This document shows, piece by piece, positions 58,666 through 63,980 of a DNA stretch of 64,000 nt. This DNA is from Persephonella sp. IF05-L8 (GTDB lineage Bacteria > Aquificota > Aquificia > Aquificales > Hydrogenothermaceae): the NCBI RefSeq assembly GCF_000703045.1, contig NZ_JNLJ01000001.1:649501-713500 (forward strand), written 5' to 3'. The notes beneath the pieces are model-generated. The model saw only the letters and a program-made list of their open reading frames with translations. It did no database searches and was not told the origin of the DNA. The position numbers and the translations under genes are program-made. Numbering within the stretch: position 1 is the first letter of the stretch; each line of letters opens with the position of its first letter.

Positions 58666-60183
58666 ATGAAAAATATTATATTAGCGTTTATCGGGGGGTT
58701 ACTGCTTGCACTTTCTTTACCTGGATATTTTATTCCTTTTGCATTTTTAGGGGGATTTTTTATTATTTTTTATCAAGCTTATAATAATTCTTTGAAAAAG
58801 GTTATCTTATATTCCCTCATTACAGGGATTTCTTTCAGTATTTTTTCGTTTTACTGGATTACCTATGCTATAAGCTACTATGGAGATGTTAATATTTTTG
58901 TGGCAGTTATTTTATTTATTCTGTTTTCTATTTTTTTCTCATTATTTTTGTTTGTCCCCTTTTCAGTATTTTTAAACTGGTTGCGAGATTACAAATATTC
59001 CATATTTTTAGCTCCTTTTTTGTGGGTTTTGCTGGAAAATCTAAGGGAGTTTATACCTTTTAGCGGTTTTCCATGGAATTTAATGGGATATTCCCTTTCT
59101 TATATAAACCCTATAGCCCAGATAACAGCCTATACAGGTATATATCTTCTTTCTTTTCTGTCTGTATTTTTCTCTGTAGCTGTTTATCTATTCATCCGTG
59201 AAAAAAATCTTTTATCTGCATCTTTAGTAGTTTTTAGTATTGCTATATTTGTGGTGATTTATATCTGGGGAGATAACAGAATTAAAAACTTCCAGCCGGA
59301 AGGTGTGCAGAAAAAGATAGCTGTCATTCAGGGAAACATAGATGAAAGTGAAAAAAATGACCCTGAAAAAGCACTGGAAATTACGCAAAAATATTTAGGC
59401 CTTATGAGAGAAGCTGCCAAACAGGATGTTGACCTGATTGTTTTGTCCGAGTCAGCAATTCCAACATATCCCCTTTTTAAGCCGGAAAGGGCTTTGTATG
59501 TGTATTTCAGACATTATTTAAAAAAGATTGGTGTTCCATTGATTTCAGGGTTTGATAATTATTACACGGAAGGTGATAACCTAATTCTTCATAACTCTAT
59601 ATTTTTGTTTGATGAAAAAGCCAATATAGTTGATTATTACAATAAGATTAAACTTGTACCTTTTGGTGAATATGTCCCTTTTCCATTTGGAATTTTCAAA
59701 CCGTTATTTCCTTATCTACAGGGCTATGATTTCATACCGGGAAAAAAACAAAAAATATTAAAATACAGAGAGTTTAAAATTATTCCTCTTATTTGCTTTG
59801 AAGCAATATTTCCTGAGTTTGTGGCATCGTTTTCCCACAAGGGAAACCTGATAATAAATGCAACTAATGATGCATGGTTTGGCAACACAGTAGCACCTTA
59901 TCAGCATTTTGAAATGGCACGGGTCAGGGCGATAGAAACAGGAAGATATTTTGTCAGGGCTGCCAATACAGGTATTTCTGCTGTTATAACTCCCACAGGA
60001 GAAATCAGTTCTTCAATAGGATTATTTAAAGAAGGTATCATTGTGGATAAGGTTTTCCTACTTGAAAATAGAACCTTCTTTAGTCAATATTATTATTATA
60101 TTCAAATAAGCTATGTGATTATATTTTTATCACTAATTTTTGTGATAAGGAGCCAACTGTGGAAAAGATTAATGAAGAAGTAA
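58666..60183 (+). CDS. lnt: Apolipoprotein N-acyltransferase
   Basis: This 505-residue membrane enzyme adds the third acyl chain to lipoproteins. About eight N-terminal hydrophobic segments precede a nitrilase-type domain with the catalytic Glu (VLSESAIPTYP), Lys (YYNKIKLVPFGEYVPFP) and Cys (PLICFEAIFP). The many lipoprotein signals in this window (HtrA-like, thioredoxin, CsgG-like, M48, the 60885 protein) are its potential substrates. It overlaps the next gene by 25 bases. Confidence 0.94.
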   Translation: MKNIILAFIGGLLLALSLPGYFIPFAFLGGFFIIFYQAYNNSLKKVILYSLITGISFSIFSFYWITYAISYYGDVNIFVAVILFILFSIFFSLFLFVPFSVFLNWLRDYKYSIFLAPFLWVLLENLREFIPFSGFPWNLMGYSLSYINPIAQITAYTGIYLLSFLSVFFSVAVYLFIREKNLLSASLVVFSIAIFVVIYIWGDNRIKNFQPEGVQKKIAVIQGNIDESEKNDPEKALEITQKYLGLMREAAKQDVDLIVLSESAIPTYPLFKPERALYVYFRHYLKKIGVPLISGFDNYYTEGDNLILHNSIFLFDEKANIVDYYNKIKLVPFGEYVPFPFGIFKPLFPYLQGYDFIPGKKQKILKYREFKIIPLICFEAIFPEFVASFSHKGNLIINATNDAWFGNTVAPYQHFEMARVRAIETGRYFVRAANTGISAVITPTGEISSSIGLFKEGIIVDKVFLLENRTFFSQYYYYIQISYVIIFLSLIFVIRSQLWKRLMKK

Positions 60184-61316: not shown

Positions 61317-61327
61317 AGACCGCACCT

Positions 61328-61411
<84 letters not shown>

Positions 61412-61416
61412 TACAT

Positions 61417-61500
61417 GCGAGCGTGGCGGAACTGGCAGACGCGCGGGACTTAGGATCCCGTGGCCGCAAGGCCGTGGGGGTTCAACTCCCCCCGCTCGCA
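61417..61500 (+). tRNA. tRNA-Leu (TAG)
   Basis: The acceptor stem GCGAGCG (61417-61423) pairs with CGCTCGC (61493-61499). The anticodon loop CTTAGGA gives TAG. A long variable arm is present. CCA is not encoded. It is 5 bases after the first tRNA-Leu and probably shares its transcript. Confidence 0.97.
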
Positions 61501-61582
61501 CTTATTCAAATAGTTCTCAAAAGCCAAAAAATATCCATATGAAGTTTTAGATTTATGGCAGGATTTTCCTAAAGGTAAAGAA

Positions 61583-61636: not shown

Positions 61637-63427
61637 TTATATAGTCCTTCTATTGTGAACTATTTTGCCTATGAACAGCAGAGATAGTAATATAAGCCAT
61701 TCTAAGTAAGAATATTTTCCAGTAGTGTTCATATTACAACCTCCTCCACCGCCGCCAGTATCAGTCTGAGGAGTATATGCACTACCTGAGAGTTTAATCT
61801 TAATTGTGCTGTACTGGGTGTTTGTTTCTATATTTAGATAATCTGAAAAAGTTCCGTCTTCGCTGGAACTAAAAGATAGTTTGATTTCACATACCTGACC
61901 AAAGGTAAATGAGTTTTCAGAGCAGGTATCAGAAGTAATTTTAAATTTGGTATTACTTTCAAGATAGATACTGCCTATATCAAGGTTTCCGTTTCCTGTG
62001 CTCTTTATTTTAAAGGAGAACTCTTTTGTTTCACCAGTTTCAGATGAACCTACATCATAATAAAAGTTGGCGTTGTCATCTGTAATGTGTTTATCAAAAC
62101 AGATTTTGGCAGAACTATCATTTCCTGAAATAGCATTATACGCATTAAGTCTGTTGCAAAAGGCAGAGTATCCTGAAAGGGAGAGTTTATTATCTCCTGA
62201 AGCAATAACATTTTTTATCAGGTCTGTATTTGTAGAGGTGTTATCTATAGACCTTAAAAGAGATAAAACTCCTGCAACCTGAGGTGCAGCCTGGGAAGTT
62301 CCAACATATCCTGCGTAATCATTAGTATCATCACCATCATTTGTATATTTATACAGATTAAGAATAAGTTGATTATTATTGACTTCTCCTCCTGGAGCGA
62401 AAATATTGACTGTGGATATTCCATAGTTTGAAAAAGAGGATATATTGTCATACCTATCTACCGAACCAACACATATAACATTATCAAGGACAACAGAATA
62501 ATTACAGGGTAAAAAATTATATACATCATTGTTAGATGTATAGTTTCCTGCAGCTGCAACAAAGATTGCTCCTATATCTTGAATAAGGCATTTTTCTGTA
62601 TCAGGATACTGTGTACAATCTATATTTAAGGTTTCGTCAACAGAGGCAGTATAACCATAACTTCCATTTATTATGGCAATATTGAGCCCTTTATTTTCTT
62701 TTAAGGATTTTATGTATTCAAAGCATTCAATCAAGTCGTTTGTGTTTCCGGAACCGTTTGACATGAATTTACACGGGATAATTTTCACATTCCAGTTTAT
62801 TCCTGCCACCCCTTCCCCATTATTTGTTGTCGCACCTATTATCCCTGCAACATTTGTCCCGTGACCATCATAATCCATTGCACTTCCTTGGCCTGAATAG
62901 GCATCAAAACCATAACAATCATCAATATAACCATTATTATCATCATCAGTATTGTTTTCACAACCATCGTCTATCCCATTGTTATTACTATCTATCTCTA
63001 ATAACTCACCATCATTAATCCAGATATTGTCCTTTATGTCAGGATGGTTATAATCAACTCCTGTGTCAATTACTGCGACATATACCGTATTTAAACCAGT
63101 TGTTATATCCCATGCTCTTTCTATATCTATATTCTGCAAATACCACTGCTGTGAATATAAAGGGTCATTAGGAACAGCCTGTGGATAAACCTTATAGTTG
63201 GGTATCACATAAGCAACATCAGGGTTTTTTTTCAGTTCTTCTATAAAATCAGAAACTTTTTTGCCTTCAGGCACTTTTACAACAATTCTATTTTTATGTT
63301 TTTTTACAATTGCTTGTGAAGATATTGAATAAGGTGTAATTCCCTTTTTTAGAAAGACAATAACTTCCTCACAAAAACCTTGATATAAAAAACCCAGTAA
63401 AAAAAGTAATAAAAAAGCCCTTTTCAT
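61637..63427 (-). CDS. Secreted S8 (subtilisin-like) protease with Gly-run/Cys C-terminal anchor
   Basis: This 596-residue exported protein has a signal peptide (1-20), an I9-type propeptide (about 21-80), a subtilase domain with Asp121 (VIDTGVDYNHPD), His189 (DGHGTNVAG), Asn295 (AAAGN) and Ser378 (GTSQAAPQVAG), and an Asp/Asn-rich loop insert (about 143-172, DSNNNGIDD and NTDDDNNGYIDD) that looks like a calcium-binding site. A beta-sandwich-like region follows (about 440-550). The C-terminus is six Gly (558-563), Cys564-Asn, a Tyr/Ser linker, a hydrophobic segment (about 574-590) and a basic end (HNRR). This is a cysteine-type C-terminal sorting tail; the CPBP protease encoded divergently is its likely processor. 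GGAGG supports ATG 63427 over a TTG six bases upstream. Confidence 0.93.
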   Translation of the reverse strand: MKRAFLLLFLLGFLYQGFCEEVIVFLKKGITPYSISSQAIVKKHKNRIVVKVPEGKKVSDFIEELKKNPDVAYVIPNYKVYPQAVPNDPLYSQQWYLQNIDIERAWDITTGLNTVYVAVIDTGVDYNHPDIKDNIWINDGELLEIDSNNNGIDDGCENNTDDDNNGYIDDCYGFDAYSGQGSAMDYDGHGTNVAGIIGATTNNGEGVAGINWNVKIIPCKFMSNGSGNTNDLIECFEYIKSLKENKGLNIAIINGSYGYTASVDETLNIDCTQYPDTEKCLIQDIGAIFVAAAGNYTSNNDVYNFLPCNYSVVLDNVICVGSVDRYDNISSFSNYGISTVNIFAPGGEVNNNQLILNLYKYTNDGDDTNDYAGYVGTSQAAPQVAGVLSLLRSIDNTSTNTDLIKNVIASGDNKLSLSGYSAFCNRLNAYNAISGNDSSAKICFDKHITDDNANFYYDVGSSETGETKEFSFKIKSTGNGNLDIGSIYLESNTKFKITSDTCSENSFTFGQVCEIKLSFSSSEDGTFSDYLNIETNTQYSTIKIKLSGSAYTPQTDTGGGGGGCNMNTTGKYSYLEWLILLSLLFIGKIVHNRRTI

Positions 63428-63455
63428 TGGCAAATCCTCCGTTTAAAATTAAAGG

Positions 63456-63980
63456 ATGAAGCAATTGGTTTTATCATACTCCTTTTTTATTATATCAGTA
63501 TTACTAACCAAAAAGTTTGCTTTTGCTTATACTTTTCAATTTTCTATACTAATTCTACCTCTTTTATTTTTAGGTGAAAAACAATTAGGTTTAAAGAAGC
63601 TTAAAGCTATTATTGCTGGAATATTAAGTTCAATCATTTATTTTCCGTTCATAAATTTTTCAAATCTATATCTCTACACTTTGCCTCAAGCATTTGCAGA
63701 AGAAGTGTTTTTTAGAGCTTTTTTACAGAACAAAATTGCAGAAAAAATAAATATACATCTATCTATAATCATTACTTCCCTGTTGTTTGCAATTCCACAT
63801 ATTATCCTTAGACCTGATATCTTTTCTGCACTTACATTTTTTCCGTCTATTTTATTTGGATACCTGTATTACTATACGAAATCTGTCTGGAGCAGTTTTA
63901 TATTCCATTATTTCTCAAACCTTTTCTTGTGGAGCAATCAAGAGCTCATATTTGATATAATAAAAGTTTGTATTTTCTAA
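63456..63980 (+). CDS. CPBP-family glutamic intramembrane protease, probable sorting enzyme
   Basis: This 174-residue protein with about six hydrophobic segments has all three CPBP/Abi (glutamic-type) motifs: EEVFFR (about 83-88), FAIPH (about 110-114) and HYFSN near residue 155. Relatives include Rce1 and the myxosortases that cleave Cys-containing CTERM tails. It is divergent from the S8 protease gene that carries such a tail, with 28 bases between starts. Start: ATG 63456 has AAAGG directly before it; TTG 63465 is better spaced and may be the true start. The window ends 20 bases later, showing AAGGAGAGG as the SD of an unseen next gene. Confidence 0.85.
   Translation: MKQLVLSYSFFIISVLLTKKFAFAYTFQFSILILPLLFLGEKQLGLKKLKAIIAGILSSIIYFPFINFSNLYLYTLPQAFAEEVFFRAFLQNKIAEKINIHLSIIITSLLFAIPHIILRPDIFSALTFFPSILFGYLYYYTKSVWSSFIFHYFSNLFLWSNQELIFDIIKVCIF

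Follow-up and report, generated by a model that had tools for sequence, protein, structure and literature searches.

The S8 subtilase and CPBP protease genes that lie back to back near the end of the Persephonella sp. IF05-L8 sequence analysed here (64,000 nucleotides, the window) very likely represent, as judged from sequence, an Aquificota branch of the myxosortase/Cys-CTERM sorting systems that would feed the type II secretion system (T2SS), with the window carrying a form that has one enzyme and one client.

The window subtilase and its cysteine tail

The proposed client, a secreted S8 subtilase, is encoded at positions 61637 to 63427 on the minus strand and was assigned on its Peptidase_S8 match, triad motifs, signal peptide and Ig domain. 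The open frame spans 61637-63433 (-) and a TTG start at its limit, 63433, is available, with the ATG at 63427 favoured because a GGAGG motif is present 8 bases upstream. From this ATG, the product has 596 amino acids and the tail cysteine is Cys564. The triad motifs are DTG at 121, GHGT at 188 and GTSxAxP at 376, and Pfam models identify Peptidase_S8 (147.5 bits), a fervidolysin-type prodomain with a score at the cut-off, and, directly before the tail at residues ~458-550, a HYDIN/VesB-like Ig domain (26.8 bits, cut-off 25.5). Hydropathy exceeds 1.5 in 17-residue windows only across residues 3-26, which form the signal peptide, and residues 573-591. The predicted sorting tail, encoded at 61640..61756 on the minus strand, has the sequence GGGGGGC564-NMNTTGKYSY-LEWLILLSLLFIGKIV-HNRRTI, a Gly run and Cys followed by a polar linker, a hydrophobic segment and a basic end. 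The frame, hydropathy and Pfam results thus bear out the preliminary description of an S8 protease that terminates in Gly6-Cys564, a hydrophobic segment and an RR end.

Tandem tRNA-Leu genes (cag, tag) are located at 61327-61501 (+), just 3′ of the S8 gene. A gene for Lnt (apolipoprotein N-acyltransferase; TIGR00546, 327 bits, cut-off 133) is at 58666-60183 (+), with ~1.5 kb between its end and the 3′-terminus of the S8 gene. One related genome (G006) has a comparable neighbour, and a connection of Lnt with the Cys tail is possible.

The divergent CPBP protease

The proposed sorting enzyme, a myxosortase-like CPBP glutamic intramembrane protease of 174 amino acids, recognized by its motifs, Mrt profile matches and structure model, is encoded at 63456 to 63980 on the plus strand, from an ATG at 63456 or a TTG three codons later. 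The ATG-to-ATG gap to the divergent S8 gene is 28 bases. The motifs EEVFFR (82-87), FAIPH (111-115) and HYFSN (151-155) are all intact and the protein matches PF02517 with 66 bits, as anticipated for a divergent CPBP gene with EExxxR, FxxxH and HxxxN motifs at this distance. This is the sole PF02517 match in the genome (1.83 Mb, 5 contigs) and, in relatives, the PF02517 gene is nearly always single and is the CPBP gene. An alignment of 40 CPBP sequences shows no variation at E82, E83, R87, H115, H151 and N155, and all aligned orthologues have the EExFFR, FxxxH and HxxxN motifs, as is characteristic of the myxosortase kind.

Compared with the NCBIfam models, the protein scores best among the equivalogs with MrtS (NF040589; 74.3 bits, cut-off 130), followed by MrtP (62.2, cut-off 250), MrtJ (NF033192; 56.8, cut-off 75), MrtC (55.1, cut-off 195) and MrtX (NF040593; 31.2, cut-off 180). 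With Mrt_core (NF040914), it scores 62.9 bits (E=2.5e-17, cut-off 100), a cut-off that is not decisive as this model gives scores of only 50-81 to proteins that exceed the cut-off for MrtJ. All 22 of 22 aligned CPBP relatives similarly match MrtP, MrtS, Mrt_core, MrtC and MrtJ. Among control proteins, two CPBP members of generic type, from Bacteroidota and Clostridia, had no match to Mrt_core, MrtP or MrtC at 1e-6, four proteins of other phyla exceeded the MrtJ cut-off, and a Myxococcales MrtC-like protein scored 104 on Mrt_core. By profile pattern, the CPBP protein resembles myxosortases and not generic CPBP proteins, so that the comparison suggested at the outset placed it with the myxosortases rather than with unrelated CPBP families. 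A tree of the CPBP core (85 columns) kept the Bacteroidota CPBP proteins apart and left the branch order of the subtypes unresolved, and we therefore claim neither a single origin nor a sister group.

The predicted structure of the protein has a pLDDT of 96.4 and a pTM of 0.90. Foldseek returned SpdC (6u0o) and Methanococcus Rce1 (4cad) with probabilities of 0.99-1.00, at E values of only 0.04-0.09, those of Rce1 being 0.05-0.09, and no other credible match; Rce1 was also the top match in a profile search of PDB sequences (E=0.0079). In five Hydrogenothermaceae genomes (loci L035, L036, L039, L042 and L044), the gene that diverges from the CPBP gene encodes the flavin prenyltransferase UbiX (scored in L035 with NF004685, 203 bits); at a further locus (L049), the UbiX gene is a few genes distant.

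Recurrence of the tail in related genomes

Homologues of the S8 protein were gathered from 61 related genomes by whole-protein search, not by their tails. Of the 21 whose C-terminus is complete, 20 have the tail of Cys, helix and basic end. Given this method of collection, the Cys was not picked by the search, and the recurrence of the tail exceeds chance. A tail profile (A1), built from the 20 tails and run on the same 61 genomes, identified further tails on proteins other than S8 homologues. The tail forms the extreme C-terminus of 74 frames, distributed over 32 genomes, and was also seen in a 69-codon frame that lies at the end of a contig (G012). Among the 72 distinct verified tails, Cys is present in all 72, preceded by Gly in 70, followed at +1 by Ser, Asn or Thr in 65 and at +2 by Phe, Met or Leu in 59, and 70 tails have at least two basic residues among the last ten. 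The Cys is retained where the Gly run is short, as exemplified by DDIIGC and NTQISC. The tailed proteins include subtilases, VesB/HYDIN-like Ig proteins and a PKD/beta-propeller protein, and 40 of the 45 tailed frames that are uncut at the 5′-end have a hydrophobic stretch within the first 80 codons. Taken together, the clients conform to the myxosortase pattern of signal peptide, C-terminal Cys motif, helix and basic end.

Tailed genomes have between one and nine tails, a single tail being found in the window genome and in G109, which is of the same species. The window tail was itself recovered by a tail HMM in its own genome (E=2.8e-11), and a pattern search and two tail-profile searches of that genome found no second tailed protein. 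The expectation that further tails would be present in the genome and its relatives was therefore borne out in the relatives, and not in the genome itself.

In G009, an S8 gene beside the CPBP gene (L041, 8120-8719) is cut down to a C-terminal piece of ~200 codons that has kept the Cys tail, and a 948-codon tailed protein with DUF7948, SBBP and PKD domains is encoded elsewhere. In G047, three contigs (C13, C52 and C53) carry near-identical tailed C-termini and end nearby, which suggests that the assembly was broken by a family of surface proteins present in several copies.

Co-occurrence and adjacency of enzyme and tail genes

Profiles for the CPBP proteins (A2) and the tails (A3) were run on 112 genomes of the order and identified CPBP in 76 and tails in 71. 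Both are present in 65 genomes, only tails in 6, only CPBP in 11 and neither in 30 (Fisher p=1.7e-12), with one genome (G060) counted as CPBP only though the first tail profile had found a tail there. When the tail labels were shuffled within genera, the observed agreement was reached once in 20,000. Enzyme and tail thus share a taxonomic range, as do the partners in sorting systems of the myxosortase kind, and the co-occurrence foreseen in the preliminary description was found. Many of the genomes are incomplete MAGs, so some of the joint absences may reflect missing sequence and be uninformative; CPBP and tail are, however, both absent from G005 (95% complete) and G011 (99%), which belong to the genus of the window genome.

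Several genomes count against sorting by the CPBP protein. G024 (96% complete) has nine tails without a CPBP match, G058 has one tail and lacks both CPBP and a GspD that exceeds the cut-off, and four further, less complete genomes have tails only. The tails in G024 and G058 could be explained either by assembly gaps or by another enzyme. Conversely, G019 has two CPBP genes (C1:595076 and C1:683342) with no tails and no GspD over the cut-off. G037 and G039 also have CPBP without tails or GspD over the cut-off, in frames that appear shortened (~125 codons), and the tail-less CPBP genes of these three genomes are perhaps relics after T2SS loss. In nine genomes with CPBP proteins of non-Mrt type, the tail profile was silent except for a single frame of 40 codons, and its matches were few and weak in 11 genomes that had been selected for Mrt-like proteins of other phyla, which indicates that it is largely specific to the Aquificota branch.

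The enzyme and a tail gene are within ~2.2 kb of each other in nine genomes (G000, G001, G006, G109, G009, G021, G049, G100 and G106) and adjacent across a contig break in G007. These ten genomes represent four genera, with both divergent and convergent layouts.

Linkage to type II secretion

GspD, called by TIGR02517 over its cut-off of 351.35, is present in 37 of the 61 genomes. All 28 genomes with both CPBP and GspD have tails, as do one of six with CPBP and no GspD (G015, in which GspD scores 347.5 bits against 351.35), three of nine with GspD only and one of 18 with neither. In G004, of the same genus as the window genome, and in G014, the tailed S8 gene is located within a gspL-gspM-gspN-S8-gspC-gspD-gspE run, in which gspD was assigned by profile and the other gsp genes by order and similarity. 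The S8 gene of G007 faces gspF-gspE-gspD-gspC, and the CPBP gene of G021 closes gspH-gspK-gspL-gspM-gspN and faces a tailed S8 gene. In three Aquificaceae (G043, G049 and G054), the CPBP gene follows gspE-gspL-gspM-gspK; in G043, gspE and gspK were recognized by profile, at scores below the equivalog cut-offs, and the remaining gsp genes by order and similarity. In G049, a single gene separates the CPBP gene from that of a tailed 640-amino-acid protein. In the window genome, gspD is distant on the same contig, at ~1.07 Mb as compared with 0.71 Mb. The operon linkage and the co-occurrence in relatives support the T2SS as a putative third member of the enzyme and tail system, and this operon linkage, which goes beyond what the window sequence had revealed, is the strongest functional clue.

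Relationship to named sorting systems

MrtX cleaves MYXO-CTERM dependent on conserved Cys residues, and its clients use the T2SS, with lipidation unproved in that system also (PMC11980579). The features found here, a CPBP glutamic protease, an invariant Cys followed by a helix and basic end, and T2SS-linked clients, are those of MrtX/MYXO-CTERM (PMC11980579), although the MrtX model has 238 positions as compared with 174 amino acids here, and M. xanthus has 35 clients as compared with 1 to 9 per genome here. The window tail has no match to MYXO-CTERM (TIGR03901, cut-off 20 bits) which, with the MrtX score, places the pair outside MrtX; two of ten inspected tails from Aquificaceae and relatives passed this cut-off, with 21.2 and 25.5 bits. 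MrtS/Synerg-CTERM is similar in having the best equivalog score, an enzyme of comparable length (model 170) and a Cys-bearing tail. Synerg-CTERM (TIGR04564) was matched weakly by 13 of 63 tails, its cut-off was reached by none of the ten inspected, and the window tail gave no match, so that this pair does not belong to MrtS/Synerg-CTERM. An arrangement of two genes, for a single enzyme and its single client as in the window, has been described for MrtJ/JDVT-CTERM (PMC11980579), whereas scores on the MrtJ model are 81-116 for the MrtJ proteins of other phyla, which branch together. JDVT-CTERM (NF033191) was matched weakly by 24 of 63 tails, with none of the ten inspected reaching the cut-off, and not by the window tail, so that membership of MrtJ/JDVT-CTERM is likewise not indicated. 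Assignment to MrtS, MrtJ or MrtX was rejected as the enzyme and tail cut-offs are not reached.

The window tail matches none of the CTERM models tested and, as the enzyme also reaches no Mrt cut-off, the earlier suggestion of a new subtype is supported. The broader proposal, of a myxosortase-type Cys sorting system, gains support from the recurring tails, the co-occurrence and the Mrt-like profile pattern. A full-text search, whose scope stopped short of an in-silico study that reportedly defined these myxosortase families, found no papers on Aquificota and CTERM signals.

Rhombosortase/GlyGly-CTERM also has a tripartite tail on secreted proteases, a T2SS link and enzyme-target adjacency where there is a single target, and such adjacency was used as support for rhombosortase (PMC3237569). 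Rhombosortase is, however, a rhomboid serine protease, and the system here has an invariant Cys. Rhombosortase was rejected as the tail enzyme as no protein in the 61 genomes exceeded the TIGR03902 cut-off of 84 bits, the best scoring 29.5 and the best in the window genome 23.

Alternative explanations

The tail could be an ordinary C-terminal membrane anchor, with the CPBP neighbour having an unrelated job, such as regulated proteolysis. The single tailed protein in the window genome, the 11 genomes with CPBP and no tails, and the separation of enzyme and tail genes in most relatives are consistent with this. Nevertheless, the Cys was kept in almost all of the complete homologues gathered without regard to the tail, Gly nearly always precedes it on different proteins, enzyme and tail co-occur and are repeatedly adjacent, and the enzyme matches myxosortase-type profiles; we consider an ordinary anchor very unlikely. 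Still more improbable is a GlyGly-CTERM/rhombosortase system, in which the Gly run would be the signal, a rhomboid would cleave and the Cys would be incidental. The Gly-rich tails and the subtilase clients with a VesB-like Ig domain do recall GlyGly-CTERM proteins, and two tails weakly match the GlyGly-CTERM model, but weak rhomboid matches occur also in tail-less genomes, none exceeds the rhombosortase cut-off given above, and it is the Cys that persists when the Gly run is short.

Alternatively, the CPBP protein might modify the Cys as an acyltransferase instead of cleaving, or perform both steps. In Staphylococcus aureus, lipoprotein N-acylation involves a member of the CPBP family, a role that lends this idea some plausibility. 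The term CPBP is used in a paper on lipoprotein N-acylation (PMC7387801), no distinct lipidating enzyme is reported for the myxosortase system, and its authors allow for MrtX having both functions (PMC11980579). The six invariant residues, E82 to N155, and the requirement in E. coli for MrtX, a relative, for client cleavage (PMC11980579) argue against this alternative, which we regard as very unlikely.

Proposed route and implications

In the sorting system that we favour, the subtilase would be exported by Sec, with its C-terminal helix retaining it in the inner membrane. The tail Cys would be lipidated by a separate enzyme, and the CPBP protease, given the MrtX precedent and its intact active site, would then very probably cut just beyond the Cys and so free the helix. 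The client would subsequently be moved by the T2SS and anchored on the cell surface. This route is modelled on the proposal for MrtX/MYXO-CTERM, a system for which conserved-Cys cleavage and T2SS use were reported, the one experimental myxosortase case in the cited literature being from Myxococcus (PMC11980579). We give roughly even chances to a more specific possibility, that a distinct Aquificota system has its small myxosortase and Cys-tailed clients integrated in the T2SS operon, with tail cleavage and addition of the Cys lipid as a committed step in export by the T2SS of this phylum, and exists in one-client and many-client forms.

The myxosortase kind would thus be extended to thermophiles of the phylum Aquificota, adding a small, 174-amino-acid enzyme, a genome with one client, and an operon tie of enzyme, client and T2SS. 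Lipidation of the Cys, and the passage of lipid-tailed proteins through the T2SS, would then be addressable in a system with one enzyme and one client.
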